64,000 bases of DNA from Monoplex corrugatus (Eukaryota; Mollusca; Gastropoda; Littorinimorpha; Ranellidae), in the NCBI GenBank assembly GCA_030674185.1, contig JAPXFY010000015.1, forward strand, positions 19,947,280-20,011,279. The letters run 5' to 3'. Below the pieces are notes generated by a model. It saw only the letters and a list, made by a program, of their open reading frames with translations, did no database searches and was not told where the DNA came from. Shown piece by piece: positions 8,420 through 56,652 of this stretch (within the stretch, counting starts at the first letter, position 1; each line of letters starts with the position of its first letter). The translations under genes and the position numbers were made by a program.

Positions 8420-8566
8420 TTAAATGAACATTTATCATCACTCCGTATGTGTCCACTCTGCTGTTTGACTGTAAAATGCTTCTGAGCTTTTGGATGCACC
8501 TGGCACTGAGATGCTAAAATCACTCCCTCACAATGACTATCTGTTCATCAGCGCCCACACAAACTC

Positions 8567-11546: not shown

Positions 11547-11696
11547 CACCAGACGGGAACCAGTGAACTCGTCACACGGTGAAGTTGTCACATGCCTCCA
11601 GTGATCTCGTCACAATAGAATAAAACTGACCCTCTTGTGAAAAGGGCCCTGTATGCAATAAAACAAAGAATCGTGAGTTGTTCTGAAAAAAAAAAT

Positions 11697-12655: not shown

Positions 12656-13428
12656 GACTGCTGGCGGTGATAATTGGCAATACGGCCGAGATAGTCGGTG
12701 CTGCGCTGGTTGGGAATGGGCCGTGACTCCTGGAGCAAATGCTCAGCAATGGTGTATGCTGACTGGTATGGTGCAGCTGCAGCTGTCTCCTTGACGTTTC
12801 TGACCAGCTTTGCTTTCACCGCCGCTCCAGATTCTGCTGCATGTAGATGCTCCTGTGTGCCTCTGGTGAAGATGTCTCCTTCTTGATGGACCATCACCTG
12901 GCACTTACAGGCAGCCCGACGCCTGGTGCATCTCCAGTGTGTTGCACCATCCTTGGATTGCCTGTGGATGCCATAGGTAAAGCCCTCAGAATCAACAAGC
13001 AAGGGCTGACCTCGTTGTGTGCCTCTGGCGATGATTTCAAACGTCAATGGCTGATCCTCCATGATCGGTTCTGTTGTTACAGGATCGTCAACCAGTGAAA
13101 TCTCCTGCACTTCCACGGGGACCTGGAAACTGGCACTGCTCGTGCTGGCATTCATGAGTTCTTCCTCTACACTGACGTCCATAGACGTGGTTTCTTCTGG
13201 AAACGTAGGGTTCCTCTCCAAAAATGCTTCTGCCAGGGCAGTGGCCTCACAGTCTTTGCATTTCCACTCCAACTCTGTCTCTCCTCTGACAGCTTGTCTG
13301 TACACTCTTCGGTCAATGCCAGTGCCGCAAATACGATGCTGCCATCTTCTGCATGCCCCATCACACAACAGGGACTCTTGTCGTGGTGTAACCTCATGCT
13401 GGCAAACGATGCAGATAGCAACTTCCAT
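12650..13428 (-). pseudogene. MULE N-terminal half: PHD-like finger and FLYWCH domain
   Basis: Starts MEVAICIVCQHEV with ATG at 13426-13428. Residues ~6-60 form a PHD-type finger (CIVC, LLCDGACRRWQHRIC, WKCKDC). Residues ~130-200 form a FLYWCH zinc finger (LLVDSEGFTYGIHR, HWRCTRRRAACKCQ, EHLHAAE). FLYWCH domains are typical DNA-binding parts of MULE transposases. It joins the catalytic half after a one-base frameshift near 12650; the two together make one transposase of roughly 570 residues. Confidence 0.88.
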
Positions 13429-13544
13429 GATGACTCTGAAGTGACTTGCTGAAACTGTTGGAAGGAGGCTTTTATACAGGTAGCTGAAGTCGAATTGTGA
13501 GTAATTTGCTCAGTGCTGAGAACTCCTGTTATAACTAGTCAACG

Positions 13545-13564
13545 CTGTGTGTGTGTGTGTGCGT
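13545..13564. repeat. (TG)n microsatellite
   Basis: TG run in the 5' region of the nested MULE. Confidence 0.85.
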
Positions 13565-13672
13565 GCGTAGGTGCATGCGTGACGACTTCACGGTGATCAC
13601 GGTGAACTCGCCACTCGTTTTTCAGCTGTGACGACTTCACCGTGTGACGAGTTCACTGGTATCCCACCAGAC

Positions 13673-17659: not shown

Positions 17660-17851
17660 TTTGTTGTTGAAAAAATCCGCAAAATCGATGATCACACTTC
17701 AAAAATTCAATACTCCGTGTTGAATCGAAGGAAATGCAAATGGCGGACGGAAGAGCAAAGTTTAGCCTCGTTTTGAATCGAAAGTAGTAGTGTTACTATT
17801 ATAAGTAACGGATATAGTGTTCGCGAACCGGGAATTTTGAACACCCTTAAC

Positions 17852-23957: not shown

Positions 23958-25610
23958 TAACTCACTACTAACACAATATCAGTTGCTTCTGATTCTGAAA
24001 CGTGTGGACTTTCACCATCAGATTGAATTGCAGATGTATTTCCACTTTTGTATCAGTTGGGTAATCAGATTCTGAAGATGAGTGTCCACAAGTTTCAGCC
24101 TTGAGAGGAGATGGTTGTTCTGTGTTTGGCACACTGCTGGGTATGAAAGAATGTGGACCAGAATACTTATACCTTTACTGCTGCCCATTTGTCCACATGG
24201 TCTGGGGACAGACAAGACTGGTACGATCTCGACATGCATGATACACAGAAACAAGAAAGGTGCATTGCTGCAAGGACTCCAGGAGGCAAAGTGCGCAGAT
24301 GGCGAATTTACCTTGAACCAAAATAGTTGACAACATATTTGAAGTCACTTTTCTCCCTGTCTGATTCTGTTCTACAAGGAAAAATTGCTGCACTTTGTGC
24401 TGACTCTGTTCTTCTTCCCCAGGTGCAGACAGGGTTTTGCAACAATGCTCACACTTGTCACAAGCATTTCTGACTGTGACTTTTCCACCTGCAGTGTCTC
24501 TTTTTACACACCGTTTCAGTGCACTTCACACCAGTTGCTGTCATTCTTCCCATGATGAGCTCCATAAAAAAAAAAATATATATATAATGCCAACTCATTG
24601 GAACCTGGGATCCATTTATAGGAAAGAAAAAGAAAGGGAAGTTTGGACTTGAACTGGGCAGTGCAACCATCACTAACAAGCACTACGTTTTTCAAAATTT
24701 TCAGCCATATCGGAGAGATACTCCAGTACTTGCTGCACACAGACCTGAGTGACATGTGCATCATAATGTAAATCGTCTCTGAGAAAAACCAGTGAATCAC
24801 GCCTCAGCTGCCCACAGCCAAAGGCTTTCATTCATAAAAATTCGCATACTCACACTTCTGTGCCAAGACTGGCAAGAGACAATACAATCTTGAGACTTTC
24901 AACTTTGGATTGAGGCAGATTTCACACAAGCACCACTGCCTCATTAAAACCTGGGACCCATTCATGGGAAGGGAAAAGACAGGAAGCTTGGACTTGAACT
25001 GGGCAGCGCAACCATCACTAACAAGCACTACTTTTCAAATTTTCAGCTGTGTTGCTGCATCATGATGTAAATCATCACTAAGATTAGTAAGAAAAACCGG
25101 TGAATTACGCCTCAGCTGCCCACAACCACATCTTCTGAAAGCCACAACAGTAAATACTGTGACTTGCCGATAAGCTCAGCGCACACTCTTGAGGCTCATC
25201 CTGGAATCGACATAGGAAATTTTCTGCGAAGTCGCATGAAGCAGTTGCCCATCCTTTGGGAAACTCCGCTTTCAACATTTGAAGCTGTTTTCGCAGCCAC
25301 TCGGCATTGAAAACATGTCGGCTAAGAGAACCCAGCTCCTGTAACAATTCATCAACACATTCATCCACTGTCCCAGATTTCAAACCTGCACCACCGCCTC
25401 ACTAGAACCTGGGGCCGCCCATTCATGGCAAAGGAAAAGACAGGAAGCTTGGACTTGAACTGGGCAGCGCAGCCATCACTAACAAGTATTGTGTTGTCAA
25501 ATTTTCAGTTGTGTTGCATCATGATGTAAATCGTCAGTAAGAAAAACCAACGATTCACACCTCAGTTGCCCACAGCCACATCTTCTGAAAACTACGACAG
25601 GAAATACTGT
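23958..25610 (-). pseudogene. Rearranged SDGC-family transposon with a triplicated segment
   Basis: Degenerate uncharacterised transposon protein. The motif VSDGCAAQFKSKLP, or a variant of it, appears three times, at about 24640-24685, 24975-25028 and 25440-25490, each within a related block of 120-200 bp. Between copies lies GTVDECVDELLQELGSLSRHVF and KGWATASCDFAENFLCRFQDE (25105-25383). The SDGC-x2-Q-x-K pattern parallels SDGCVGQNKN in the intact DUF7869-like protein at 43703. Frames are broken throughout. Confidence 0.65.
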
Positions 25611-30176: not shown

Positions 30177-32126
30177 CTACAACTGGGCATAATCAGCTTT
30201 GGTGTGGAACAATTTGAAACAGGGTTCGACGCACAGTGGAATTTCACACAGTTCACACCAGTATTGTGTTTCTTTTGCTCTCTTCCTCTTTCCCTGCACA
30301 CTTGCTGCTCTGTCATAACACACCTTACAGTCTCTTCTAGGTTTTGCTTTGGCTTTCGTAGCTGGAAGTGAAACCAAAGAATGAAATTTGGTAATATCCA
30401 GACGCAGAAGAGTTTGTGGCTTGCTGGGCGTTCTTGAAGGTGGTTGTTGGGAAGGTGCTTCCATGTACTCTTCACAAAGCTGCTTTCCAAGGAGCTTCAT
30501 AAAATGAGGTACTGGCATTGGCTTCTGATGTGTCCTGACCCTCACTTTGTTGAAAATGATTCCAGCCTGGATAGCACACAGAGTGAGAAGGTGCATGAAA
30601 ATTTTGGTTGTCCATTTTGCTGTGCGTCGAGCCAGAGGAACGTAGGACAGAAGCTGGTCACTGTGGTCTACTCCAGACATATGTGCACTATACTGGACAA
30701 CAGCTTCTGGTTTTTCTTTGTCTGTGATATGCCTGCTGGTCACTCTTCTGGTTTCACGTGGGTCATAGACTGATGTTAGGATCGATACATCACGTTTATC
30801 TTTCCACTTCAGAACCACAAGATCTCCTTTCCTGCGAAAGCTACTTTCACCTGTCTGTAGTTTCTGCACAGCAAGATCTTTGGGCATTCCTACTCTGTTT
30901 GCCCTAACAGTTCCTGTGCACATGGTACTCCTGCTAACAAGCTGTTCACAGAGAGCTGGACAAGTGTAATAATTGTCCGTGAAGACGTGGTAGCCCTTAT
31001 CCAGCAGTGGCTCCATCAGTCTCAGGACAACATCAGTGGGCTTGTTACTCAGCCGGTGATCAGCAGCATAAATCTCAAACCTGTGCACATATCCTGATGA
31101 TGCCTCACACAGCTCATAGAACTTAATTCCCCATGGAGTAGGTTTGTCCTTGAGATACACTTTGAACCGTAGCTTGCCCCTCCAGGCACACATGGCCTCA
31201 TCAATGGATATCTCTTGCTCCGGAGTATACACTTGCTCAAAACGCTCCTGCAGATGCTCATACAAAGTTCTGATTTTATATAAGGGATCATGATGCTGCT
31301 CACCCACTGGCACATACTTTGCATTATCACTGAAATGCAGCATAGACAGAATAGCTTTGAAGCGATCCCTTGCTAAAATACGAGCTGCAAACTTTGTAGC
31401 CACAAATTCATCCAAACTCCAGTAGTCGTGAATTGAAGGCTTCTTCACAACACCCATGTGAAGCAGAATCAAAATAAATCCTTTCACCTCCTTCAGGCTG
31501 ACTGTTTTCCAGTTTCTGACCACTGATTTTTGACTGAACACAGGATTTTTTTTAGTTCAGCTGCATATCTGTTGGTTTCTTCTTTGATGTGTTTTATCAC
31601 AAAGTCATCACAGAAAAGCTTGAAACAAGACATAGCACTGAACTCCTCCAAATCAGCATTCAGGGCTGGGCTACCTTCAAATGTAGGAATTTGGGGATAA
31701 TTGGTGAGATCCTGTGACCAGTTTGTGTGTGTGTTGTCACTGCTGTCAGCGCCTATGTCACTGCCCATTTCATCAGCATCAACCACGCCCACTTCATCAG
31801 AATCATGTTGTAACTCATTGTCACTACCACTGCCTGACTCGACATCACTTCCTAATGTTTGTAGAACATCAAACGTTGTTTCTAAATTTACTCCACTGGT
31901 CGATGGCTGGCTGGACGAAACACTACTGGCCTTTTTCTTGCTTGTCTTCTTTCTTCTGACAGCGATAGGCCTAGCTGACTCACAACTATCACTATCGCTA
32001 CTCTCACCCACCTCTTTTCTACTAGGCACAAAATCTGGGTCACGATCTGAATCAAAATTGCTATCCGAAACATTTTCTTCACCAAAGAGATCAAAAATAT
32101 TTCTCTGTTCACCTGGAGAAGCCATA
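30177..32126 (-). pseudogene. piggyBac 2 transposase, one frameshift
   Basis: N-terminal frame starts MASPGEQRNIFDLFGEENV (ATG at 32126), with a long acidic/Ser-rich linker and KEETNRYAAELKK. A one-base shift in an A8 run near 31550 moves to the frame 30177-31541: LKEVKGFILILLHMGVV, ISIDEAMCAWRGK (first Asp), HVFTDNYYTCPALC (second Asp), HMSGVDHSDQLL (third), and a C-terminal Cys cluster CKVCYDRAA...CELCEIPLCVEPCFKLFH. Apart from the homopolymer shift the gene is complete, so it could be intact if that is an assembly error. Confidence 0.92.
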
Positions 32127-33718: not shown

Positions 33719-35722
33719 TTAGTCTTTTTGGGCAAGATGCCTGCTGGAAGAGCCCTTGAGGTAGGCAATCATTTCAGGTGAAAACTGCTTGGTCAGTGCA
33801 GATCCTGGCATGTGCTTGCAGATAATGAGAGCCTCTAGTAGTTGATCCCCCATCAGTGAGCGCTGGTCTGTTTTTATTTTTCTAACACAGGAAAAGACTC
33901 TCTCACAGCTGGCAGATGAGTGGGGCACGACAAGCAGGCCAAGAAGAAAGAGGCAAGCAGTCCTGATATCCTCCTGTTGAGCCAGCTTGCCCCAGAATAG
34001 GCCAATATCATCTGAAGGTGATGGCAGGGATTCTTTCTCCAGCAACACAATTTAAAGTGATTGGAGTTGGTTTACCACCTCGTCTTGAGTTGAGCCACTT
34101 GGAATAAGAATAGGCCACATTGTCATGAGTCCCTTTAAATTGTCTATGGCACCACTTTCAACAAACTTGCTGGGGTTCGTTGAGGCAACTTTCTTCAAGA
34201 ATGAATTGTTGTGAGGCAGGTTGTCTTTAAGGTAGTCACAGACTGACTGATAATAGGAGATAACAGATTTGAAAAAATCATCCTTCTTCTTGCCTGAGAT
34301 ATTCTTCTCCTTCATGAATGCCTCCACTTCAGATCCAACTTGGATGTCCTTGTGATCTTTCACATTGTACGCTGACTTGTAATCAACTTCACAGGGAGAT
34401 TTGTATATCATACCACTTGGCTTGACAAATTTTTGAAGGACTTCTTTCATGAGCCTGTTGATATTCTCATGGAGACTTTGGATCTGAGGGGCTTCTGACT
34501 GGTGCTTGGTGAGAAAAGGCTGGAAAGTCTTCACAGCAAACATCAAGAACAGAGCACAGAGACGAGCTGTGTGGGAACATAAGTTCTCATAAATTGAGGA
34601 TGCCTTCTTGTTAGCAGCTGTTCCTGGTTTTGTATTTTTCTCCTTTTCCTCTTTAAAAAAATCTCTCAAGGCTGGCCAGTCAGCAACCAACCTATTCAGA
34701 CATCGGGCAATGCTGATCCATCTGGTGCTCACATGCTTCAAAACTCCCCGCTGTTCCTGGCCATGATATTCTTGATATTTACCTAAATTCATTTGGCGAA
34801 CACTGCTTTTCTTCATATAGTAGTAGATGTCAACCAGAAGATCAGCAGGGGAAGATGGCAGTTTATCTGCAGCTTTCTCGGCAGCTAAGTGCACTAAATG
34901 CAGAGTACACCCAGACAGGAAACACTCAGGGTTCTTCTTCTTGATAAAGGAAAACACTCCCTTGTGAACACCAGTCATGACACTTGCATTGTCACAGCCA
35001 AATGAGACACAGTTGGTCCATGGAATGTCCCCTTCCTGCAGCAAAGCATCCAACAGATTAAAAATGTTTTCTCCTGTGCCAGAGCCATCAAGGACAGGTA
35101 ATGACACAACTTCTGAGTGAACCTCACAGGTCTCCACATTAAGTGTGCGAACAACAATGGGGTAAAGCTTCGCATTTGAGTCATTTGATCCATCTGTTGC
35201 AAGTGAGAATGGGCTGGTCTTTATCCTTTCCATAAGGGTGTCCTTGTGAATTTTTGCAATGTCTTTGATCATAGCAGTGGCCTTTGTGCGCTTACAAGAG
35301 AATTTCGCTGCAATTAAAGAATCATCAAACATTTCCTTGAAAGCTTCCGTCAGTGTGTCAGCTGCATTGATCGACAAGTTAAGGTCAGCAATCAGACTCA
35401 CCATTCTGATTTCAGCTTTGGTTATTTTTTGAGCAAGTTCCTTCTCCTTCTCCAATTCTTCTGCACTCTGTTGGGGTTTGAAGAATTTATGAAGTGATCC
35501 AGCCTGTTGGTTGTGATTCTTCTCTCTCTCAGAATGCCTGATGGATTTCTGATGTCGCTTAATATCCCCAGCACCGGATGCACCGATATAAATGTCCGAA
35601 TCACACAAAGTACATCTTGCATAGTGCACTGAGTCCTTGCCCTTGGTCGTACACTCCGTAGTGAAAGCAAAAGATTTCTTGTATGAGTTCAAAAAGCACT
35701 GCTTAGATGCCTTTGAAGCCAT
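33719..35722 (-). pseudogene. hAT 2 transposase with a single in-frame stop
   Basis: Starts MASKASKQCFLNSYKKSFAF (ATG at 35722). Residues ~30-75 form a BED-like finger (CTLCDSDIYIG...IKRHQKSIRH). Then KEMFDDSLIAAKFSC, PFSLATDGSNDSNAK (first Asp), CVSFGCDNASVMTGVHKG (second Asp), GCTLHLVHLAAEKA, STRWISIARCLNRL. The frame meets one TAA at about 34052 and resumes in the same frame to 33719 with the dimerisation motif SSASCERVFSCVRKIKTDQRS (Glu of the DDE triad is expected in this region). No frameshifts: a single nonsense change separates it from an intact ~667-codon transposase. Confidence 0.93.
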
Positions 35723-35732: not shown

Positions 35733-36102
35733 ACTCACAACACCTAGAAAATGCACAAAAGGAATCTAGATCTATAAATAATCGAGTCAACTGCAATTTG
35801 AGAAACACACACTGTGTCACTTTGAGTGAGACACCCTCACTGTACTGTCTAGATCTAGTGTCAGCCTACTGTATCACTGTATCGAATATTAGATCTAGAT
35901 TCTAGATCTAGGCCCGGTTAAATCAGATCACGAGCACAAACTGTCCAGGTCAGAACAAATCTCTCCAATCGAAATTTTCACAGCCTCACAAAGAACGAAA
36001 ACAGCACTGAAGTTGAAGCATGTGAAATCTACGTAAAAAGTGCAGAAAACTATTGTTCCCCACTAGAGATCTATCTTCATTCAAAAGATGCACTGAACTC
36101 AC
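35733..36102. repeat. Copy A of the hAT 2 5' tandem repeat, uninterrupted
   Basis: About 370 bp starting AACTCACAACACC. Copy B begins at 36103 with the same bases. Contains several CTAGATCTAGAT stretches. It preserves the empty-site version of the DUF7869 insertion (GCAGAAAACTATTGTTCCCC near 36043). Confidence 0.85.
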
Positions 36103-36187: not shown

Positions 36188-38828
36188 GTAACTATAAGTG
36201 CTTTTGCACTCTAAGCCTCTGTACCTAGAACATTTTAAGGATTTCACAGAAAAATTGGGGTAAGTCACAAAAAATGTCATAACTTCCATACCTGATAAGA
36301 TAAACAAGTTTGGTTTGCTTTTACTGGTTAGTAATTGAAAGTACTGCTTGATGCCACCTAAGATGTTAATTTACATGGAGATTATAATTATTTAACAAAT
36401 TATTTACCTGCTAATCACCAGAAAAAAAATTAATGCGTTGTTGTTGCGTGTTAAAAACATAAATAAAACACAATCAGAAAACAAAAAGCATGCAAATGTA
36501 TTTGTAAAATGTTTGTGCTTGGAAGTGGAGTGACTGTTTACCTCAAGAAACATGCTGAGCTGCTAATCCACAGATAATCCACAGGTGAAGTTCAGGTAAA
36601 TCCAACAGTGTGAAAAAGACAAGTCTCTCATTTCAGCTTGAAAATACAGTCAGTTCAGGTTGAAATTCAGGCTGATAATTTGTGAAAGTTAATCCTAACA
36701 CAACAAACTTTACTCCAGGGCACTTTGAACAGTATATGCAGATCATAACCAATCAATAAATCCAGGTAACAATGGCAGGTAACAGGTAAGTATACAGGTA
36801 AGTCATTATGTCTTGTATACACAGCAAAGTCTGAGTTTGAAGCTAGTTGTAGTGATGAAAAGAAGCCCAACATCCTTCTTTGCACAAGGCAACTTGGCAG
36901 ATTGTACACTCAAAGCTGGATTGGATTTTGTTGCCAGCTGGTGTTCGGCACCCTTCTTTATTGCAGGTGTAGCAAAGCCGCTTACCTCTGGCAGTTGTGA
37001 TCTTTGCTGGCTCATGGATGGCTTGTTTTGCTGCAACTGGAGAATTCATAACATAACTTTTACGTTTTCTTGAGGAAAACTGTCCTATCAGCAACTCTGC
37101 CACCTTCAAATGAAATTCCAGATGGGTCAGGGGCTTTGTGCGTGGGCCGCCAGGTGCTTCCTTGTACAAGACGTATGCGTTCAGCAGAGAAACATCCATT
37201 ATAAACCAGAATATGTATTTCCACCATTTGTGTGCTTTGCCTGCAGAAGAACCGTAGTATGTGCGAAGCTGGTCATTTTTGTCAACGGCATTAAAATGTT
37301 CTGTGTATTCCTGAATCGCACGTGGCTTTGGGTATTGACGGGCTGGCTGTCCACGTTTGCCTGGCCTATTGACTTGTATGTCATCCACTTTGTTGGCAGT
37401 ACACAACACTGAAACCTTTTTCTTCTTTTCACACCAACTGATGGCTGTCATGCCCCCCTTCTGCATTTTCAGGTGCTCACCACTGTTTTTAAATTTCACA
37501 CTCTTTATCTCTTGTGGGAGACCCTTCCTATTGATGCGCACAGTGCCGCAGGAATATGTTCCGTTTGCCAACAGCTGTTCCACAAGTGCAACACTTGTAA
37601 AATAGTTGTCAAAATACACATGATGATATTTGTGTAACAGATCTGTGTCTGTCACAAGTTTCATGACCACCCTAGTGCCCAGAGGTTCCTGCACTCCAGC
37701 CTGTGTGAGATCTTTCCCAGTGTAGATGTTGAAGTCGCACATATAGTAAGAGGTTGAGTCACAAAGGGCCCACGCCTTTATCCCCCACTTGTGTGGCTTT
37801 GCTGGGACATATTGAAGAAAGCCACACCTACCTTTAAATTTAATCATGGCTTCATCAACAGCAACTTCACGGTGGGGTGTGTAGAGGGTCTTGAAGGCTG
37901 CTTTTGCATTTTCTATCACAGGTCTGACCATGTGAAGTTTGTCATGGTTTGGTTGTCCACGTGGGGGGTTGGTCTCTCTGTCACTTAGGTGAAAATTATC
38001 TTTGAGGGCTTCATAGCGGTTTTTTGTCATCACTTTGGACACAGAAGACTGGTGTAAGAAACTATCTCCTGACCAGTAGTGTCTGTAGCTAGGCAAACGC
38101 ACAACACCCATCACAAGCTGCACACCTAAAAACGCACGAATCTCAGCAGCGCACGTGTCAACGAAATGAACGCGATGTTTCTGTTGCGCGTACAAGTTCG
38201 TTTGTGTAGCAAACTGATCAAACATTTCCTCAGGAACAAACTGACAGAAATAATCCAGAGGTGTTGCATCAAGGTCTAGAGGCGTTGTCGGACCTACATG
38301 ACGGGTGAAACGCTGTAAAATTGGGTCTGAAATAGGCTGTTGTTGCCACCCAGCATCTCCGCCGCCATGATCGTCAAGGCGTCGTCTGACACACGGCACA
38401 CACCGCTGAAAAACTCCAGTGTCGCTGTCCTCAAAGTCGGATAAGTCACTTGTGTGAACACTAGAAACACTTATGTCACTTCCCTCCGAATCTGACACAG
38501 GATGGTTGCGAATAGAATTGTCAGTGGCTGCAAACTCAGGGTCACTGTGGCTCGAAGATGCATCCGAGTCCGCCATGTTTGTTATTGTCGCGTGGCCACT
38601 TCGTATGTAGCGGTATTTTGCCTTCTTATTCAGCACACACAGTGCTTAACTGCGCATGTGTGGTGTGGAAAATATGCATGACCTTTCCCCTTTAGATGGC
38701 TATTCTTGCCTTTTTGATAGGAGAGCTGCTTACCGCATCACATGACTTCCATATACGGGACTCTAGTTCAGGTGCCTACAGGCGTTTCAGGTACACACGT
38801 GACAGGCGCCTATGGGCGTTTTAATTGA
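36188..38828 (-). mobile_element. piggyBac 3
   Basis: 2641 bp between TTAA at 36184-36187 and 38829-38832. Excising it rebuilds a palindromic target, ATATCTCTTAAGAGATAT. Unusually, the ends inside the TTAAs (GTAACTATAAG and, inverted, TCAATTAAAACG) do not match each other, so either the ends have diverged or my boundaries are off. The right side has GGCGCCTATGGGCG-type inverted motifs. Confidence 0.8.
36843..38576 (-). CDS. piggyBac 3 transposase, intact
   Basis: 577 residues from ATG at 38574-38576 (MADSDASSSHSDPEF). Acidic N-terminus, then EIRAFLGVQLVMGVV, VAVDEAMIKFKGRCG (first Asp), VYFDNYFTSVALVEQ (second Asp), EHFNAVDKNDQLRTYYG (third Asp region) and a C-terminal Cys cluster CYTCNKEGC...CTICQVALCKEGCWASFH. 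Uninterrupted. Divergent from piggyBac 1 and 2, so the window holds three piggyBac lineages. Confidence 0.95.
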   Translation of the reverse strand: MADSDASSSHSDPEFAATDNSIRNHPVSDSEGSDISVSSVHTSDLSDFEDSDTGVFQRCVPCVRRRLDDHGGGDAGWQQQPISDPILQRFTRHVGPTTPLDLDATPLDYFCQFVPEEMFDQFATQTNLYAQQKHRVHFVDTCAAEIRAFLGVQLVMGVVRLPSYRHYWSGDSFLHQSSVSKVMTKNRYEALKDNFHLSDRETNPPRGQPNHDKLHMVRPVIENAKAAFKTLYTPHREVAVDEAMIKFKGRCGFLQYVPAKPHKWGIKAWALCDSTSYYMCDFNIYTGKDLTQAGVQEPLGTRVVMKLVTDTDLLHKYHHVYFDNYFTSVALVEQLLANGTYSCGTVRINRKGLPQEIKSVKFKNSGEHLKMQKGGMTAISWCEKKKKVSVLCTANKVDDIQVNRPGKRGQPARQYPKPRAIQEYTEHFNAVDKNDQLRTYYGSSAGKAHKWWKYIFWFIMDVSLLNAYVLYKEAPGGPRTKPLTHLEFHLKVAELLIGQFSSRKRKSYVMNSPVAAKQAIHEPAKITTARGKRLCYTCNKEGCRTPAGNKIQSSFECTICQVALCKEGCWASFHHYN

Positions 38829-39231: not shown

Positions 39232-42200
39232 CTAGTCGGGAAAATAGGATTTAAATTGGAAAGTTTTGAGGGCAGTCTTGAAAGAAGTAATAGATTCAAT
39301 GTAGCGAATTTCACGGGGCAGAGAATTCCAAAAAGTTGGTGCTGAATATGAAAAGGTGCAGTGACCGAAGGTTTTAGTTCTTACTCTGGGAATGCACAGT
39401 AGTCTTAAGTCAGAAGAGGAGCGAAGATTTCTGGAAGGTGAGTAGACGGATAGGAGATCAGAAATGTAACAAGGGGACGTTCCAGAGAAAAATGAATGAC
39501 AGAGAATCGCAAGTTTGAATTCGATACGAGCTTGTACAGGAAGCCAGTGGAGGCGTTTTAGCAGAGGAGAGACATGATCTCGCTTACGGGATTTAAAAAC
39601 AAGCCGAGCTGCAGAATTTTGCACTTTCTGTAGTTTATCTATTTGATCTTTTGAACATCCAGAAAGAAGTGAATTGCAATAATCCAGTCTTGAGAGAATG
39701 AAAGCAGAAACCAGAGTTTTTGTAGCATCAACAGAAAGAAGATGACGCAAGGAACTGATTTGGCGGAGATTGATGTAAGCAGTGCGACAGGTGTTGTTTA
39801 CATGAAGTTCAACACTCATGTTGTCAGTGAAGTAGAAACCAAGATTCCTAGCTGAGGAGGAGAAAGGAATTTCAGTCTGATCAATGGTAATGGTAGTAGG
39901 TTTGGGAGATGGGGAGGTTTTGAAAGGAGAGGACAAAAAGAGAGCTTCAGTTTTGTCATCATTTAACTTTAATTTATTTTCTAGCATCCAGGTCTTGATA
40001 TCTGAGATACAGTCTTCTAAGACTGGGATAGCAGAGTAGATATCAGAAGGAGGAGAATCAATTTCAAGTTGGATGTCATCTGCAAAGGATTGATGCTTAA
40101 TGGAATGTGATTTTATCAAATCGGAGAGTGGCTTTGTGTAAAGAGCAAAGAGCACAGGTCCCAGAACGGAACCTTGTGGAACACCGAAAAGGAGATCAGT
40201 GGGTGGGGAGGAATGATTGATGACAAGGACTGATTGTGTCCTGTTCGTGAGATACGACTGAAACCAAGAAAGAGCGGTGCCTGAAATACCATACAGAGAG
40301 GAGAGTCTATTAAGAAGAATGTTATGATCAACAGTGTCAAACGCAGCTGACAGGTCTAATAGGGTCAGCACAGAAACATTTCCAGAGTCAAGGGACAGAA
40401 GAAGATCATTGGTAATTTTGAGTAGAACAGTTTCCGTGCTGTGATGTGGGCGGTAGGCAGACTGTGAAGCACAGAGCAGATTATTTTCATCCAAATAGGT
40501 AAGAAGCTGTTTCAGAACAATTTTCTCTAAGATTTTAGAAATGAAAGATAGGTTAGAGATGGGTCTGTAGTTTCTCAGGGAGTCAGGATCCAAAGAAGGC
40601 TTTTTAAGAAGGGGTTTCACAACAGCGGTTTTGAGAGGGGATGGTAATGAACCAGATGTTAGAGAAGAGTTGATAATCTCAGTCAGAGTAGGTAGAAGGT
40701 CGTCGAGAAACTCAAGAAAAAGTGGTGTTGGCAGGGAATCCAAAGGGCAGGAAGTAGGTCTTGATTTTTGAATGATGGATTTCAGTTCAGATTCAGTGAC
40801 AGGATGAAACCGGTGGAAAGTGGATTTTACTGCTTGAGTTTTAAACTTTTGTTTCATCTGGGGTAAAACAGCTTGATCCAGGTCAGTGCGGATTGACTGC
40901 ACTTTCTGAGAGAAATAGTCTCTGAATACAGTAGGCAAATCATGCAGGGGATAGGTATTTGGAAGAGGAGATGTTTTATCTCTACCTAATAGCTTATCAC
41001 ACACCCTAAACAAGGTCTTTTGGGTTTGAGCACCGGCTATCTCATTTAGGTGAAACATGGACTTAGCATTACTGACAATTTTGCCCACTGCCTTCTTTGC
41101 AATATTAAAAATCTGTTTGTTGATAGTGATCGGGTTTTTCAGCCATTGTCGTTCGGCCCAGCGCCGATGTTTCTTTGCGGCCTCAAGCTCTTCTTTTACG
41201 TCTAAGTACCAAGGCTCGAGTCTGTTTGCGCGCAGTTTTCGTTGGCGCAATGGTGCGTGTTTGTCTAGCAAAGATGACAGCGTGCTGTTTAGCATGTCGA
41301 TTGACGGGCACTGCTGGGGACTGACTAGACTACAGAGGTCAGATCTAAAATCAGCGTGATTTATCGCACGTAGGTTGCGGGATTTTGTAAGCACCGTGGA
41401 GTTAGTAGGAACAGTCAAGGACAATTTAGAAACGACACAATAATGATCAGAGGACAGAGATTCCGTAACATAAGATGAAGCTAACACATTGTCCGCTGGC
41501 CTAGAAATGACCCAATCCAAAATGTGACCACGTTTATGAGTTTTTTCATTGACAGATTGAGACAGATTGTACATGTCCAATAAGTTTTTCATTTTCACAG
41601 TGCGGTAATCATTGTCAGAGTCAAAATGTATGTTTATATCACCAAGAATGATCAAGTTTCCAGAGAGAGTGTTACAGTAATCTAGCAAAAGAGAAAATTC
41701 GTTCAGAAACATAGAGTGAGTCAGCTGGTTTTCCTGGGATGGCGGGGGACGGTATACACAGATGAAGTGTGTACAGTTTTGAGACTGCGTCAGTGAAACA
41801 CGGACGGCCTCGAACGACGGATGCTGGAAGGGGAAGGAGGTGGAGCGTGCCAGGTGCTTATCAAGCAAATCGCGGTACACAACAGCTATTCCTCCACCGC
41901 GTGCTGGACGAGCGATGGACATAGATGAAAAGCCCACAGGCGTCAGATCTTTGAGTTGTGCTTCATCGCCTTTTTCCCGAAGCCAGGTCTCAGTAACAAA
42001 TAACATATCAATGTCATTGTCAGCGATGAAGGTAGAGATCTCAGCCCTCTTCACGGCGTTGCGCTGGATGGACTGCGCGTTGAACAGTGCCACAAAGAGG
42101 TCGTGTTTTGGAGCACTAGGTATGGCATCAGGAATCAAAGGAATGTTAATGAGGTTGCAAGGGTTTGAGCCGGAGGAACGTTTGGTGGTGAAACAGGGAT

Positions 42201-42765
42201 CAGAGTCAGGTTGGCAGGAAGAAGATTTCAGTGTAGAGTGGTCAGTGGCTGATGATGGTTTGTCAAGGGAGAAAGTGCCAGGACGGCCGATAACAGGGAT
42301 CTTTCTCTGTTTCCTTCTCCCTCCCCTACACCCCCGTACACGTGGAAGGTCTACACCAATGCGAAACCGTCGCAACTTCAAGTTGAGGGCGGGGTCAAGG
42401 GGTGCAGGTTTCACTGCCAGTAGCTCATCACGAGTGAAGGAGATGGGGGGTGAATGGGGATGGTGGCAGTTGAGAGGAGGTGGGTGGACGGTAGAGAGTG
42501 AGTGTGATTGCTCACACATTGCAGCGCTGTCAGTGGAGACGAGTGGGCAGAAGAGAGAGCGAGGTGGTACAGCAGCAAGCATGGGTGAAGCGTGAGAATG
42601 ACCCTGAAACCGCACGCGCGGCACGCAGGCGAAACAAGATGGAGGACAGGCATGATTCTTCAACAGTACAGTATCCGTCAGTCGCGCCAAAAACAAAAAC
42701 CACAAAAGTCGAAGATGCAGGGGAAGGGAGGCACAAAACAATGACCAGATAATAGTCCACATCAT
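39232..42765 (-). CDS. LINE B polyprotein: N-terminal basic domain, endonuclease, RT
   Basis: 1177 residues from ATGATG at 42763-42765 (MMWTIIWSLFCASL), the position homologous to the starts in LINE A and C. A hydrophobic N-terminus is followed by FTRDELLAV and the basic RGGRRKQRKIPV motif (~150). Endonuclease: VALFNAQSIQ, VTETWLREKG, RGGGIAVVY, IILGDINIHFD, HILDWVIS, LSSDHYC. RT: NYRPISNLSFISKI, DLSAAFDTVDHNILL, FGVPQGSVLGPVLF, HQSFADDIQLEID (FADD catalytic box), LGFYFTDNMS, then the conserved WNSLPREIRYIES C-terminus. CR1/L2 superfamily by style, no RNase H. Fully open, so potentially active. Confidence 0.95.
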   Translation of the reverse strand: MMWTIIWSLFCASLPLHLRLLWFLFLARLTDTVLLKNHACPPSCFACVPRVRFQGHSHASPMLAAVPPRSLFCPLVSTDSAAMCEQSHSLSTVHPPPLNCHHPHSPPISFTRDELLAVKPAPLDPALNLKLRRFRIGVDLPRVRGCRGGRRKQRKIPVIGRPGTFSLDKPSSATDHSTLKSSSCQPDSDPCFTTKRSSGSNPCNLINIPLIPDAIPSAPKHDLFVALFNAQSIQRNAVKRAEISTFIADNDIDMLFVTETWLREKGDEAQLKDLTPVGFSSMSIARPARGGGIAVVYRDLLDKHLARSTSFPFQHPSFEAVRVSLTQSQNCTHFICVYRPPPSQENQLTHSMFLNEFSLLLDYCNTLSGNLIILGDINIHFDSDNDYRTVKMKNLLDMYNLSQSVNEKTHKRGHILDWVISRPADNVLASSYVTESLSSDHYCVVSKLSLTVPTNSTVLTKSRNLRAINHADFRSDLCSLVSPQQCPSIDMLNSTLSSLLDKHAPLRQRKLRANRLEPWYLDVKEELEAAKKHRRWAERQWLKNPITINKQIFNIAKKAVGKIVSNAKSMFHLNEIAGAQTQKTLFRVCDKLLGRDKTSPLPNTYPLHDLPTVFRDYFSQKVQSIRTDLDQAVLPQMKQKFKTQAVKSTFHRFHPVTESELKSIIQKSRPTSCPLDSLPTPLFLEFLDDLLPTLTEIINSSLTSGSLPSPLKTAVVKPLLKKPSLDPDSLRNYRPISNLSFISKILEKIVLKQLLTYLDENNLLCASQSAYRPHHSTETVLLKITNDLLLSLDSGNVSVLTLLDLSAAFDTVDHNILLNRLSSLYGISGTALSWFQSYLTNRTQSVLVINHSSPPTDLLFGVPQGSVLGPVLFALYTKPLSDLIKSHSIKHQSFADDIQLEIDSPPSDIYSAIPVLEDCISDIKTWMLENKLKLNDDKTEALFLSSPFKTSPSPKPTTITIDQTEIPFSSSARNLGFYFTDNMSVELHVNNTCRTAYINLRQISSLRHLLSVDATKTLVSAFILSRLDYCNSLLSGCSKDQIDKLQKVQNSAARLVFKSRKRDHVSPLLKRLHWLPVQARIEFKLAILCHSFFSGTSPCYISDLLSVYSPSRNLRSSSDLRLLCIPRVRTKTFGHCTFSYSAPTFWNSLPREIRYIESITSFKTALKTFQFKSYFPD

Positions 42766-42861
42766 CACAAAACAGTTGGTATAACTTTCACCACAAACAA
42801 AGCACCACAACCACAATAATCCATTAAATAATAGAGAGACAAAAACTCAGCCTGTCAGGCG

Positions 42862-43003
42862 AATGTAACTTCTGATGATCCGATCACGAACACAAATGTC
42901 CAGGTCAGAACAACTCTCTCCAATCGAAATTTTCACAGCCTCACAAAGAACGAAAGCATCACTGAAGCATGTGAAATCCACTTAAAAAGTGCAGAAAACA
43001 ATT
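42862..43003. repeat. Copy B of the hAT 2 repeat, third segment
   Basis: Matches copy A 35925-36055 (GTCCAGGTCAGAAC, CTCTCCAATCGAAATTTTCA, AAAAAGTGCAGAAAAC) and ends at the DUF7869 transposon. Confidence 0.85.
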
Positions 43004-43035
43004 CGTCGGTGATATCACGTACTAGAGTAACCAAC
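43004..43035. repeat. Left terminal inverted repeat of the DUF7869 transposon
   Basis: Pairs with 47241-47272, 31 of 32 bases. Contains GATATCACGTACTAG, repeated inside both ends. Confidence 0.95.
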
Positions 43036-43225
43036 AATTTCCTAACTTTACAGGAGGGCAGGTTAAAGTTTTGGGCGCATTTTAAAATTCAACTGAGAGA
43101 TAACTATAAGCCACATCATGCTCATATTTGGATATGATATTCTTCTTAATGTCAATTTTACTCTCTCAATGCAAGTTACAAGAAATAATGCACATACTTT
43201 GCAAAATTTATCCTTTTTACAGATA

Positions 43226-43302
43226 CCCTAGTACGTGATGCAATTTTTCCCACTCCAAAATGTCAGATACGATATTTTTATGCGATACGCTAGTATGTGA
43301 TA
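43226..43302. repeat. Left subterminal motif copies
   Basis: CCTAGTACGTGATG at about 43227 and ACGCTAGTATGTGATATC at about 43285, inverted relative to the left terminal repeat. Confidence 0.8.
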
Positions 43303-43522
43303 TCTATTGATCAGAATACTTTACAAAAATTGTGTAGCTTACGCCACTTGATTAATATATTTATAAAGCAAGTTACACCAGGTTAAGGTAGATTGACTTT
43401 AATTTTGCAAAGCAAATAACAGTATGAAAAAAGTGAGTGAATAATGAACAAGTGCAAACCAAAACATCATCCAAATAAACTGAATCTAATTTTTCTTTGA
43501 ATATAATAAAGGCAAAAAACGA

Positions 43523-43700
43523 AAACCAAGGAACATGACATATTGGAGTCAGAATGAGCCTTAAAATAATACAAAATGCACGTACTCACAGGGTTGAAGT
43601 CTCTTCAAAGGAAACCAAGGAACATGACATATTGGAGTCAGAATGAGCCTTTAAAATAATACAAAATGCACGTACTCACAGGGTTGAAGTTTCTTCAAAG
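43523..43700. repeat. 88-bp tandem duplication downstream of the transposon ORF
   Basis: Two near-identical units (AACCAAGGAACATGACATAT ... GCACGTACTCACAGG ... TCTTCAAAG) immediately 3' of the stop codon. Confidence 0.9.
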
Positions 43701-43702
43701 TT

Positions 43703-46168
43703 CTACTCAAAATGAGGCAAATTCATGTAGAAACTTCTGTGTTCTCTGATTTTGACAACAGGTGTCGTTCCCGAGCAAAGAGAAAGTAGATCATTATACT
43801 TCTCTTTCGAGATCTTGTTAGCTTCTGCGTTCAGCTTAGGGAGATCATATTCGTTAATGCTTTTTTTCAGTCTTTTGAGAGATAGAGATTTAAATTCTTG
43901 ATTAGAGTGACTTGTTTTATAGAACACTTTGTCAAGATGTTGCTTTGAAACCTGAAGTTCCATCACTCTGTTCCAGTTGAATAACTCCTCACTTCCAGAA
44001 CATCTTCTTGCTTCCAGAATACGAAGGTCTTTTGATAGGGTTTTGAAATCCCAAAAGTCATCAACCTGCAGCTGGTGAATGATGTAAGGCTGCTTAGGGC
44101 GGGCAAGACTGAAAACAGTTGTCAGTTGGGATGGTTGAAACAGATCACCTGCTGAATTCACTGCCTGATTTATTACACTATGCGCTGAGTCACCCTCATT
44201 TTGACCATGAAAGGATTCAAAGAAGCGGAGCGATATTTCCTGCAGATTGGTGCTTTTGCTAACTGTATATAGCATCATCGCTGGCATTATTGAGTTTTTA
44301 TTTTGACCGACACATCCATCGGAAAATAGATAGGCTTTTCTTACTCCCTTCTCATCATAAAACCTCAGGGCTTCGAAAACTGCTGTTGAAATCTCAGATG
44401 ATCCACGTTTGCTGGTTGCTTCATCCCAAGTAAAGCAATGGCAGTTTTTGTCACCGATGTTATAAAATGTAAGGTTGTACACAGCTAGTCTTCTTTTGTA
44501 AAATAGGGCGCTTTCCTTTGAGATTGGGAGATGGATGACCTGTTGCAGATCAAAGCTTGCACAAAGCACTGTTTTATTTTCTACAGCTTCTTTCTTACAT
44601 TGATCCTTCAACTCTCTCACTTTTTGTTTTTCTCCTACATGAATCTCATATCTTTCTCTAAGATTTTCCTTCACTGTTTCGTCTCCTTTGAGATAGGTCA
44701 TGCACAGAGAACATTGGTCCTTTTTGGGTCTGTGTATCGAAAGATTTTTTTCCTTAAAAATTTTCTTGTAGAGAGCAAAACTTGGTGGATTTGGTCGAGG
44801 GTTCCATTCTTTTATAAATAAGTTGTACATTTTCCTTTTTGACAGGTCTGGGTGCAAATATTCCCTTGTGGTCGATTCTCTGCAAAAATGAGACTCAACT
44901 CTTGGAAATCTATCGATGTGACCTTCAATCTTTTGGCGTATCATCTGATCTCTAGCTACCACTGTTTCTGATTGTGTTCCTCCTCTGTTGTCCTTTGTCA
45001 TTGTCCCTGTCGAGGTGATCTTGCTGAGTGCGGTTCTTGTGGTCTGTTCTGATATTGCTAAGGTGTTAAGGAAAAACACCTTGCAAACTGGGACAACATT
45101 TTGATTGATGGTAAAAAAATAGCTTTTGGTTACTTGTCTTCGCGATGCCTTTTCTGGATTGCTTTTCCTTTTGGTTTGGGAGCATTTTATATGTCTGACA
45201 AGGAATTCCCTTTGCAACCTGAGATCTGCCAGTGCATAGTAGGACTGAAATAATTCATGCCTCTGTTCATCACTAATCGTTGAACAATGTCTCACACATG
45301 TGTTTTCTTTACATCTTGTTTTCATCTTTCTTGCAGCAATTTTCTTTTTTGTGGCATTACTTGTATATTCTTGCCCCATATTTCTTTGACGTTTTGCTTC
45401 CTTCTGTTTGTTTGGCCGGGACATCTTTTCCTTGGCAACTTCCCTGGCACTACCTTCAACATTATAATCTTCAGGTAATGCCATGTCATGGTGAACATCA
45501 TCATTTGGCACCTCAAAGTCATTTTCATTCGTTTGCATGTGACAGGGACCACCAGAACTCAATGTTGTCTTAGTATCTGCCCGCTTATCTGCTCCAGATT
45601 CCTCTATTGCCAATTTATCTACCTCACAAGTTTTTCCTTGGTCTCTCTTATTACTTTTGACTTTACCGTGTTGGGAACAAGACGATATGTCCTCGTTGAA
45701 ATGATCAAAACAGACCAAGATTTCACAATCAGGACAGGCTGCCCACACTTCTTTCTTGCATCGTTTGACCTCACATTGTCCAGGATTAAACTCTGGGTCT
45801 TTATCTGAATCATAATATTCACAAAGTGACATCCCCTCACTACTGCTGGCTTCACTCATGACCTCTTCAGCCCCCTCTATTCCATCATTACTGTTCTCAA
45901 GAGTTTTAAATGTGCTTTGAGTTTGATTGTCATCCTCGTGAATTTCATTAGATTGTCCATTTGAAATGTTAATTGTCTTTTCTCTGTCTTTGCATCTGCT
46001 TTGAAGAATCACAAGTGGAATATCATCATCAGAGTCGTTGTCATTTTGACTCTCTGGCTTTTGCAAACCAGTGGCATGTTCTGGACCAGGCCTGCCAATG
46101 TCTTTTGGCTTACTTTGCAATTTGATAAGTCGAACATCTTCGTCAGAGTCTCCTTTAAAATCTGCCAT
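43703..46168 (-). CDS. DUF7869-like transposon protein, candidate DDE-type transposase
   Basis: About 821 residues from ATG at 46166-46168 (MADFKGDSDEDVRLI). The open frame extends 26 codons upstream without ATG, across a good splice acceptor (TTATTGTTTCAG), so a 5' exon is possible. Acidic Ser/Asp-rich N-terminus; Cys-rich zinc-binding region ~130-170 (CEVKRCKK, CPDCEILVCFDHF); second Cys/His cluster ~290; QCSLCMTY ~485. The C-terminal half resembles DUF7869: CASFDLQQVIHLP (Asp ~540), TSKRGSSEISTAVFEAL, YLFSDGCVGQNKN (Asp ~617) and ESFHGQNEGDSAHSVI (His/Glu/Asp/His ~654-663). These spaced acidic positions look like an RNase H-fold nuclease; that activity is inference. No stops or frameshifts. 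Confidence 0.85.
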   Translation of the reverse strand: MADFKGDSDEDVRLIKLQSKPKDIGRPGPEHATGLQKPESQNDNDSDDDIPLVILQSRCKDREKTINISNGQSNEIHEDDNQTQSTFKTLENSNDGIEGAEEVMSEASSSEGMSLCEYYDSDKDPEFNPGQCEVKRCKKEVWAACPDCEILVCFDHFNEDISSCSQHGKVKSNKRDQGKTCEVDKLAIEESGADKRADTKTTLSSGGPCHMQTNENDFEVPNDDVHHDMALPEDYNVEGSAREVAKEKMSRPNKQKEAKRQRNMGQEYTSNATKKKIAARKMKTRCKENTCVRHCSTISDEQRHELFQSYYALADLRLQREFLVRHIKCSQTKRKSNPEKASRRQVTKSYFFTINQNVVPVCKVFFLNTLAISEQTTRTALSKITSTGTMTKDNRGGTQSETVVARDQMIRQKIEGHIDRFPRVESHFCRESTTREYLHPDLSKRKMYNLFIKEWNPRPNPPSFALYKKIFKEKNLSIHRPKKDQCSLCMTYLKGDETVKENLRERYEIHVGEKQKVRELKDQCKKEAVENKTVLCASFDLQQVIHLPISKESALFYKRRLAVYNLTFYNIGDKNCHCFTWDEATSKRGSSEISTAVFEALRFYDEKGVRKAYLFSDGCVGQNKNSIMPAMMLYTVSKSTNLQEISLRFFESFHGQNEGDSAHSVINQAVNSAGDLFQPSQLTTVFSLARPKQPYIIHQLQVDDFWDFKTLSKDLRILEARRCSGSEELFNWNRVMELQVSKQHLDKVFYKTSHSNQEFKSLSLKRLKKSINEYDLPKLNAEANKISKEKYNDLLSLCSGTTPVVKIREHRSFYMNLPHFE

Positions 46169-46246
46169 GCTTGACGCACATTTTTTGTATTCCTGAAACA
46201 ATAAAACGACAAAAAAGTAAAAAGAAATTGCATTAGATGTTTCCAA

Positions 46247-46281
46247 GTCAAGTCAAGTGCTAGAGTGTATAGCACTTGACT
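46247..46281. repeat. 13-bp perfect hairpin
   Basis: AAGTCAAGTGCTA and its inverse TAGCACTTGACTT separated by 7 bases, immediately before the U2-like fragment and upstream of the transposon ORF. Confidence 0.85.
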
Positions 46282-46282
46282 T

Positions 46283-46311
46283 ATCACTTCTCAGCCTTTT
46301 GGCCAATATCA
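46283..46311 (+). ncRNA. U2 snRNA 5'-end-like fragment
   Basis: ATCACTTCTCAGCCTTTTGG followed by CCAATATCAA closely matches the conserved 5' end of U2 snRNA (branch-point region upstream part). The rest of U2 is absent, so it is a truncated pseudogene or captured fragment on the strand opposite the transposon gene. Confidence 0.65.
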
Positions 46312-46540
46312 AAGAATAGGATGTTTCCAAAAGTGCACTAATTCCCATGATATAATGTAATGTAGCAAACATAAAATTTAGAAAGTGTGATTTTGAATAG
46401 AGAATGGGAGCAGGGAATCAAGTAAAATGATAAGATTGTGACAAAGAATCAATTCGTAAATACTAGTATATAGGCCTAGTTGTCTTTCATCATACTTGAT
46501 CACCTGATTGAAAGGAGCCTGTCATTATGTAAGCTTACTT

Positions 46541-46565
46541 TATCTTTATCATCACCATTATCATC

Positions 46566-46597
<32 letters not shown>

Positions 46598-46632
46598 CAT
46601 CACCATCATCATCATCAGCATCATCATCATTA
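46541..46632. repeat. (ATC)n microsatellite
   Basis: About 90 bp of ATC repeats with a few ACC/AGC variants, inside the 5' region of the DUF7869 transposon. Confidence 0.95.
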
Positions 46633-47049
46633 CGGTTGTTGTTCATGGGACAGCCAAATACTAAAGAAATATTTCATGCAGGCTAGATCTACATAAAAAT
46701 GCACATTTTGTCATTGAGAATTTCATATTAACAGTGAACTAACACATGAAATGCACCATTGAATACAACATAAATCATTATAATCTAATTGTAAGCTTAC
46801 CATATAGATCTAGAGGTAAATAATAATTGAACATACCTGTGCTCAGTGAAATTTCGTAGAAACAAGCTCCTGTTTCCCAAGTTTTCTTCTGAGTTCAGCG
46901 CGCCAAAAGTTTCGTCACAATTCCGGCGGACGTGACCTACGGCACACTCCCATTGAAAAGAAGGGTAAAAGTTCACAGTGATCTACTTCATTGAGTCACT
47001 TACGCTACCTTGTGTGGCTAACAATGTATGGTCATTTGGATGCAAATCG

Positions 47050-47123
47050 GATCTCACGTACTAGCGTATCATCCATTACGCTAGTTCGTTGTATCACTTT
47101 ATGGGAAAACAAGCCACACGCTA
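47050..47123. repeat. Right subterminal motif copies
   Basis: CTCACGTACTAGCGTATC (~47053), ACGCTAGTTCGTTGTATCAC (~47079) and CACGCTAGTACGTGAAG (~47107), in both orientations, mirroring the left side. Confidence 0.82.
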
Positions 47124-47240
47124 GTACGTGAAGAGGCGGTATCTCAGCAAAGAATGCACGCATCGATACGCCGCTTTGAGTTGACCTAGATTTATGTATT
47201 TGCAATTGTGTGATGGTTATAACTCAATTTTGACCTAAAT

Positions 47241-47272
47241 GTTGGTTACGCTAGTACGTGATATCACCGACG
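47241..47272. repeat. Right terminal inverted repeat of the DUF7869 transposon
   Basis: Inverse of 43004-43035 with one mismatch. Confidence 0.95.
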
Positions 47273-47698
47273 AATTGTTCCCCACTATCTTCATTCAAAA
47301 GATGCATTGAACGTCCACGGAAAGGGCCAGTCGGACAAAGAAACACAACTCCACAATGGCGGCTCTGTTGACATTTCACGACCAAGAAACCGGAACTCAC
47401 TGGGATTTGAGCAGTAAAAAAACAAAGGCCTGAACGCAAACAAAATTCTATCATCGAGTGCTAATTAATTTCCGATTCCGATACTTGATGGAGAATAACA
47501 AGAGGTATCGGCAATTGCTCGCGTATTCTCAACCAAGTTTTACGATCCGAGTAGGGCTTGACAGCGGGTTTCGAGCAATGGCGATCATGCTTACCGGAAA
47601 ATCAAAAGATGCGTATTTGATCGTTTTGACGCGTATTTGCGTATTGCTGACAGTTTTGCGTACTAGAATACGCAATTGCTTACAGGTTGGCAAGTCTG
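47273..47698. other. hAT 2 right-end sequence
   Basis: End of copy B, then unique 5' sequence of hAT 2 with GCGTATTTG-type repeats, finishing at the inverted terminus. Confidence 0.7.
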
Positions 47699-47977
47699 TC
47701 CTTGCACTCCACAAGGTAATCTCCGTTTCGCAGCTTTTTTTAAAATATTTTTTTTATTGTTTTGGGGTTTCCTGATAGGGCTTGAAATCCCTTCTGTACG
47801 GCAAAGGGCATCAATTTCCAGATTGGTTTTTCATCGTCAATGCCCGTCACCACTAACCACGCTGCCCAAAAACCTGTTGCCTGTCGTGTTGCATCCTCGG
47901 AATCTGAGTCATATTTTGTGTCTCTTTTTTGTTTTTGTTTGTTATAAGGTGCCCTGAGCTGAGAGGACTCTTCTTTT

Positions 47978-55623: not shown

Positions 55624-56652
55624 TCAATATCGCGTGTGTCCGCCCCGAGCTTGGATGCATGCTTCACAGCGCCGATGCATCGACCCCACAAGGGTACGGA
55701 GTGTGTCCTGAGGGATGGCCGCCCACTCGATCTGCAGGATGTCGACCAGCCTGGCCAGGGTGCCCGGTGGGGGGTGGTTGTCCCTGATGCGCCTCCCGAG
55801 CACATCCCAGAGGTGTTCAATTGGGTTCAGGTCAGGTGAGCACGCTGGCCAGGCCATACGGACGACTTCATGCTGCTCCAGGAAGTCGGTCACAAGGCGT
55901 GCTCGATGCGCAGGTGCATTGTCGTCCTGGAAGATGGCGCCTTGACCAAGGTCCACAAGCGCAGGCAGTGCCACGGCCGCCAGAACCTCGTCCCGGTACC
56001 GGACCCCGTTCAGGATGCCGTCAATGGGGAGCAGGGGGGTCCGGGTACCACGGCTCATGCCACCCCACACCATCACCGACCCGCCGCCGTACCGGTTATG
56101 CTCTTGGACAGTGGCGTCAGCGAACCTCTCCCCTTGACGTCGCCACACCCGAGCCCGGCCATCGTTAAAGGTCAGGGTGAACCTGGACTCATCCGAAAAC
56201 AAGACCCGGGCCCACTGTTGCCTTGTCCAGGTCACGTGCTCCCTGGCCCAGGTCATGCGGCGCACTCTGTTGACCGGTGACAGCACGGGTCGGACGGCCG
56301 GTCTCCGTGACCTCAAGTTTGCCTCATGTAGCCGTCTTCTCACCGTGCTGCAGCTGATGTTAGCACCTGTTGCGTCCCTCAGCTGACCCCTCAAGGTCAC
56401 CGCAGTGGATGCCCTTTCCCTCAGGACGGAGAGGGCAAGGTAGCGGTCTTGCTGTCTTGTCGTTACTCTGGGTCGACCCGTGTGACGCCTTTCCTGGACT
56501 GCTCCAGTCTCATTGAAGCGCTCCAGCAGTCTCTGGATTGTGGAATGCGACACTTCAAGTCGTCTAGCAACTTCCTGCTGCGCTAGGCCTTCATCAAGCA
56601 GAGCGAGGGCTCTCCCCCGCTGCTCATCCGTCATCCGTCGTCTTGCAAGCAT
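55624..56652 (-). CDS. Tc1-like transposase, intact (DD34E)
   Basis: 342 residues from ATG at 56650-56652 (MLARRRMTDEQRGRALALL). N-terminal paired-like helix-turn-helix (QQEVARRLEVSHSTIQRLL), GRPR hook at ~59-62, second HTH (ISCSTVRRRLHEANL). DDE domain: VLFSDESRF (Asp154), IFQDDNAPAHRA (Asp244) and SPDLNPIEHLWD (Glu279), spacing 34 residues, diagnostic of the Tc1 family. GC-rich compared with its surroundings (about 60 % by eye), which suggests recent arrival or transfer. I could not delimit the terminal repeats; candidates are CCCTTTT-bearing stretches near 55582 and 56720. Confidence 0.95.
   Translation of the reverse strand: MLARRRMTDEQRGRALALLDEGLAQQEVARRLEVSHSTIQRLLERFNETGAVQERRHTGRPRVTTRQQDRYLALSVLRERASTAVTLRGQLRDATGANISCSTVRRRLHEANLRSRRPAVRPVLSPVNRVRRMTWAREHVTWTRQQWARVLFSDESRFTLTFNDGRARVWRRQGERFADATVQEHNRYGGGSVMVWGGMSRGTRTPLLPIDGILNGVRYRDEVLAAVALPALVDLGQGAIFQDDNAPAHRARLVTDFLEQHEVVRMAWPACSPDLNPIEHLWDVLGRRIRDNHPPPGTLARLVDILQIEWAAIPQDTLRTLVGSMHRRCEACIQARGGHTRY

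Follow-up and report, generated by a model that had tools for sequence, protein, structure and literature searches.

The locus at 43004–47272 of the window (the whole stretch of Monoplex corrugatus DNA analysed here, 64 000 nucleotides) raises two questions: is its DUF7869-like protein the transposase of a mobile element, and, if so, does that element belong to a named superfamily? To the first, the answer is very probably yes: the stretch is built like a DNA transposon, and the protein is likely to be a DDE/D transposase, which would act by cut-and-paste into AT-rich 4-bp targets.

The element spans 4269 bp, with termini CGTCGG...CCGACG, and no tRNA genes were found in 42500–47800. Its inverted ends are identical at 31 of the first 32 bp, a figure given in the initial annotation and reproduced on recounting, and at 34 of the first 36. 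The 4-bp duplication described there was also recovered, AATT abutting both sides of this one insertion:

43000–43003, no strand: left target-site duplication AATT, the letters flanking the element
43004–43039, plus strand: left terminal inverted repeat (TIR), 34/36, with 31/32 in the first 32 bp
47237–47272, minus strand: right TIR, 34/36 against the left end
47273–47276, no strand: right target-site duplication AATT, the letters flanking the element

Because AATT is self-complementary, the apparent inverted repeat extends through it (43-bp arms), and the TIR and the duplication were told apart by the empty-site comparison. The window has three places with inverted pairs that match at 30 or more of 32 positions and are spaced 300–12 000 bp apart, the element's ends among them; 20 first-order Markov random windows contained none, which rules out a chance inverted repeat. 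When fused with a single AATT, the flanks of the element align across the junction to a second site in the window (GCAGAAAACAATTGTTCCCCA versus GCAGAAAACTATTGTTCCCCA):

35922–36098, plus strand: related empty site, an element-free paralogue of the host repeat, from the alignment with the joined flanks

This paralogue carries TATT where the flanks carry AATT, and substitutions and three gaps, of 1, 6 and 8 bases, set it apart from them; it is, therefore, a diverged related empty site rather than the pre-insertion allele. Thus, the empty site that had been assigned to an adjacent tandem copy does exist as a related site, but it lies ~7 kb away and is not adjacent.

The sole ORF of the element occupies 58% of its length on the minus strand, from an ATG at 46168 to a stop at 43703–43705. 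Re-reading upheld the annotated intact frame of ~821 aa: it encodes 821 residues (P0001), uninterrupted by internal stops. Support for this ATG comes from LOC143288506 of Babylonia areolata (P0002): that protein likewise opens with MAD-KGDS-EDV, and it is 88% identical to P0001 over 820 residues, with one gap. The gene and its surroundings comprise:

43703–46168, minus strand: ORF, 821 aa plus stop, predicted DDE/D transposase (P0001)
45659–45787, minus strand: Cys/His-rich N-terminal segment, residues 128–170, with a weak resemblance to the Tc5 transposase C-terminal domain
44981–45073, minus strand: likely helix-turn-helix, residues 366–396, with two model helices and a weak PaaX match
43523–43700, no strand: 89-bp tandem duplication directly past the ORF stop

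Within the first of these segments, residues 128–158 match the Pfam profile of the Tc5 C-terminal domain at E 0.0064, under the cut-off, and 17 of the 56 family members match it at E≤0.01. The Pfam PaaX profile matches residues 366–396 at E 0.19 (E≤0.01 in 13 of the 56 members); with the two model helices, this region is likely to be a helix-turn-helix with a predicted role in DNA binding, and the Cys/His-rich segment may bind the DNA ends together with it.

The original proposal that a DUF7869-like protein is here linked directly to mobile ends holds. Moreover, since the ORF is intact and the ends agree at 31 of 32 positions, we concur that the element, a structurally complete transposon known from one copy, has probably moved recently. 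An extremely improbable alternative is that the ORF is a host gene flanked by inverted repeats that arose by chance, or that it is a domesticated transposase; the single copy in view and the extra domains of some relatives (for example, BESS in P0136) would suit it. Against this, the TIR, the target-site duplication, the related empty site and the end-clustered motif sites described below all share common boundaries, and several divergent lineages occur inside one insect species. This coincidence of ends, duplication and empty site led us to reject a host gene.

The element's ends are further marked by a 14-bp motif, CACGTACTAGCGTA, which has seven sites with up to two mismatches, every one within 300 bp of an element end; the expected count over the window is 0.07, and the maximum in any of 100 shuffles was two. 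One copy lies within each TIR, and the remainder are subterminal, in both orientations:

43016–43029, plus strand: site 1, in the left TIR, 1 mismatch
43224–43237, minus strand: site 2, subterminal, 1 mismatch
43286–43299, minus strand: site 3, subterminal, 1 mismatch
47055–47068, plus strand: site 4, subterminal, exact
47077–47090, minus strand: site 5, subterminal, 2 mismatches
47117–47130, minus strand: site 6, subterminal, 1 mismatch
47247–47260, minus strand: site 7, in the right TIR, exact

We consider these to be putative transposase binding sites.

The predicted catalytic core and its acids are placed as follows:

44066–44737, minus strand: predicted RNase H-like core, residues 478–701, from the structure model and conserved acids
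44549–44551, minus strand: D540, core
44318–44320, minus strand: D617, core
44195–44197, minus strand: E658, core
44189–44191, minus strand: D660, core

In an alignment of 68 core sequences, D540 is present in all 68 and D617 in 67, with Asn in one relative; E658 accounts for 66 of 67 letters (P0073 has Ala), and D660, H654 and H663 for 67 of 67 each. Forty residues separate D617 from E658 in all 66 rows counted, and 76 separate D540 from D617 in 45 of 56. The motifs FDLQQ, SDGC-GQNKN and H-x3-E-x-D-x2-H, put forward in the initial annotation as candidate catalytic positions, are conserved across the family alignment and are located where the predicted fold wants a DDE/D triad; indeed, in the predicted RNase H fold of P0001 the three acids are placed as such a triad needs. 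Both E658 and D660 are near-invariant and lie at a helix start in the predicted fold, and either may be the third catalytic residue.

The structural comparison with RNase H-fold transposases that had been recommended points to an integrase/mariner-like predicted fold, an assignment that comes from a VIA second look (50 rows) rather than from a search-level match. The predicted core is nearest to retroviral integrase cores; its identity to these and to mariner cores (Mos1, Metnase) is just 6–14% (50 rows), and the element differs from both in the D-76-D-40-E spacing of its protein, the AATT duplication, and N- and C-terminal parts of its own. Foldseek alone gave nothing at E≤0.001 against either the PDB (best 7.5e-3 for TnsB and 1.6e-3 for NurA) or viral models (best 1.8e-3), and the sole match in a PDB sequence search was 1wys (E 0.14). 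Among the weak Foldseek top rows are TnsB, the NurA nuclease, RNase H, the P-element transposase and IstA.

Given the mobile-element anatomy and a lone protein whose predicted fold resembles those of DNA-cutting enzymes, the DUF7869-type family are likely to be transposases. In the mechanism that we envisage, the N-terminal half of the protein would use its Cys/His-rich segment and helix-turn-helix to bind both the inverted ends and the CACGTACTAGCGTA sites within ~300 bp of them, and the bound ends would be drawn together (synapsis). A pair of metal ions held by D540, D617 and either E658 or D660 would serve metal-dependent cleavage at the CG ends, strand transfer would follow with a 4-bp stagger, and gap repair by the host would leave AATT at both sides.

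DUF7869 (PF25273) is the one name that Pfam offers for the core: residues 610–710 of P0001 align to it at profile positions 59–154, with a score of 19.2 bits, short of the curated 26-bit cut-off. Relatives above that cut-off include P0130 (35.5), P0129 (31.8) and P0135 (28.4), and 41 of the 56 aligned family members, P0001 counted, match at E≤0.01. A protein search with P0001 yielded 279 matches at E≤0.001; the named sources among the best 120 are the gastropods Babylonia, Aplysia and Elysia, and beetles, a butterfly, a moth, a fly, a psyllid and a crab, and a later search supplied a named relative from a sea cucumber. P0003 (458 aa), a shorter relative that represents 21 member sequences, shares 92% identity across 85% of the query region. 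The Babylonia match points to a gastropod host, but transposons can pass between species. A search from 26 divergent relatives, with part of the candidates scored, returned 15 matches, none of them transposon-named. Pattern searches of IMG/VR and GTDB contigs gave 30 and 130 matches, respectively, with no relative among them, nor was any relative found in plasmid sequences. In a core tree (FastTree, midpoint-rooted, by branching order), four Ceutorhynchus and three Callosobruchus proteins all occupy separate positions, and the Elysia protein is distant from those of Babylonia and Aplysia; scattered placement of this kind is common for transposons.

The window itself is rich in transposon-like ORFs, six of the 10 long ORFs scanned having Pfam transposase or reverse-transcriptase domains. 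Among its 801 stop-to-stop ORFs of at least 40 aa there is no further DUF7869-like one; the next-best score (E 0.0069 at 24519–24803) was judged to be chance. The family profile was compared with four other ORFs: a Tc1-like one (55627–56652), a piggyBac-like one, and those at 34055–35722 and 11697–12749, which have no Pfam match. This is a weak test, these being single sequences, and it gave nothing convincing: the best probability was 3.65% (P 0.012), for a weak alignment of the helix-turn-helix and an RGGR stretch to the Tc1-like ORF.

That alignment and the general DDE fold are what would link the element to Kolobok, piggyBac, Tc1/mariner, Ginger or Academ, and we regard membership of any of these as improbable. 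P0001 has no match at E≤1 to Pfam DDE_3, rve or DDE_Tnp_1_7, the last of which is strongly matched by three other ORFs in the same window. The lack of rve, which we take to be the Pfam name for the integrase-like protein of Ginger, contrasts with the proximity of the predicted core to retroviral integrases. The target is also at odds: AATT rules out piggyBac, for which the available part of PMC9587614 gives TTAA, and Tc1/mariner, for which that of PMC10741241 gives TA; the latter source describes the Ginger protein as Gypsy-integrase-like. Kolobok, which the initial annotation had raised as a possible home for the element, is likewise a DDE element with a 4-bp duplication, but it is rejected on target site, termini and motif: the TTAA target, 5'-RR...YY-3' termini and C/DxxH between the second D and E described in the same part of PMC9587614 are all missing. 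Here, the termini are CG...CG, and the single His in the D617–E658 interval is H654, three positions after E651.

The leading known candidate is Sola, and specifically its Sola2 branch, on a comparison by description rather than by sequence. On balance we lean slightly towards placing the element there, in which case only the DUF7869 link and the family would be new. The likeness consists of a 4-bp AT-rich duplication, TIRs, the size range and a possible third D. Thus, AATT fits the AT-rich AWWT duplications that the accessible text of PMC3627910 describes for Sola2-type elements of Dictyostelium fasciculatum; the element's size and TIR length are within the ranges that the accessible text of PMC10741241 gives for Sola generally (4-bp duplication, mostly 2–9 kb, TIRs of 11–1124 bp, DDD transposase); and D660 may complete a DDD triad. 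Sola2 is reported from bivalves, with 105 elements in the portion of PMC10294476 available, and the present family is so abundant in animals that Repbase is unlikely to have missed it. On the other side, a third acid at E658 would make the triad DDE; the dictyostelid TIRs in that text of PMC3627910 are 12–13 and 21 bp, shorter than the 36 bp seen here; and, in the same portion of PMC10294476, Sola is apparently confined to bivalves among the molluscs screened. No Sola-named protein occurs among the matches listed, and nothing pairing Sola with AATT was found in the open-access literature searched.

The initial annotation had instead suggested an undescribed DNA transposon superfamily, taken here as one of DDE/D elements defined by the DUF7869 core, a proposal that is so far unsupported and that we hold to be possible but doubtful. 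In its favour, P0001 has no Pfam transposase catalytic domain at E≤1 and no NCBIfam match at E≤0.1, no transposase name is present among the matches listed from three protein searches, and DUF7869 was not found in the open-access literature searched, where matches to GQNKN were seemingly unrelated. However, lack of a Pfam domain does not mean lack in Repbase, and the target duplication agrees with Sola2. Should the proposal nevertheless be correct, for which we see some, albeit limited, prospect, DUF7869 would be the catalytic domain in an animal superfamily of DDE/D transposons in its own right, with AATT-type 4-bp duplications, an integrase-like core, D-76-D-40-E spacing, end-clustered CACGTACTAGCGTA putative binding sites and hundreds of database proteins that are now uncharacterised.

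If the family is instead Sola2, as we slightly favour, and the host a gastropod, the bivalve-only statement in the available portion of PMC10294476 would need widening; if the HMMs described there missed the family, this would lend slight support to its distinctness. Overall, the evidence that DUF7869-like proteins act as transposases is good. From one clean insertion, a domain of unknown function, with named carriers in molluscs, insects, a crab and a sea cucumber, gains a concrete and testable function, that of a transposase, and re-annotation as transposons could then follow for many predicted 'genes' that contain a DUF7869-like core. Judging by its intact ORF and near-identical ends, this element, or its Babylonia relative, is a candidate for a working transposon.

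The window carries several further transposon-related open reading frames (ORFs), together with a short near-palindrome inside the element:

15926-17695, long ORF with a DDE_Tnp_1_7 domain
20422-23073, non-LTR retrotransposon-like ORF with endonuclease and reverse transcriptase domains
30177-31541, long ORF with a DDE_Tnp_1_7 domain
36843-38636, long ORF with a DDE_Tnp_1_7 domain
39232-42816, non-LTR retrotransposon-like ORF with endonuclease and reverse transcriptase domains (1194 codons open)
46250-46282, near-palindrome of 33 bp, immediately adjoining the U2-like stretch at 46283-46322
55624-56652, Tc1-like transposase ORF of 342 aa with HTH_Tnp_Tc3_2 and DDE_3 domains

The three DDE_Tnp_1_7 ORFs are of piggyBac type. 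In the Tc1-like ORF (55627-56652 in this comparison), the part with the helix-turn-helix and GRPR shows a weak alignment (P 0.012, probability 3.65%) to the N-terminal helix-turn-helix and RGGR stretch of A3, the family profile of P0001 (the element's predicted transposase) and its relatives; that stretch of the profile corresponds approximately to residues 369-398 of P0001, and the match could be due to chance.

Within the element (43004-47272), 46283-46322 (+) resembles the 5' end of U2 snRNA: 26/30 positions are identical to the first 30 bases of U2, and the Rfam U2 score is 19.4 bits (E 0.9), below the 46-bit cut-off.

The third inverted pair in the window (7140-8666; 30/32) overlaps, via its left arm, the repetitive ORF at 6988-8094. 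A possible ACCAGAC duplication was noted by eye for the remaining pair, at 11558-13661. The near-perfect arms of the latter, matching at up to 31/32, enclose one ORF with a FLYWCH domain and one of 350 aa, for which Pfam gave no match; the whole looks like a further DNA transposon, perhaps a MULE-like one.
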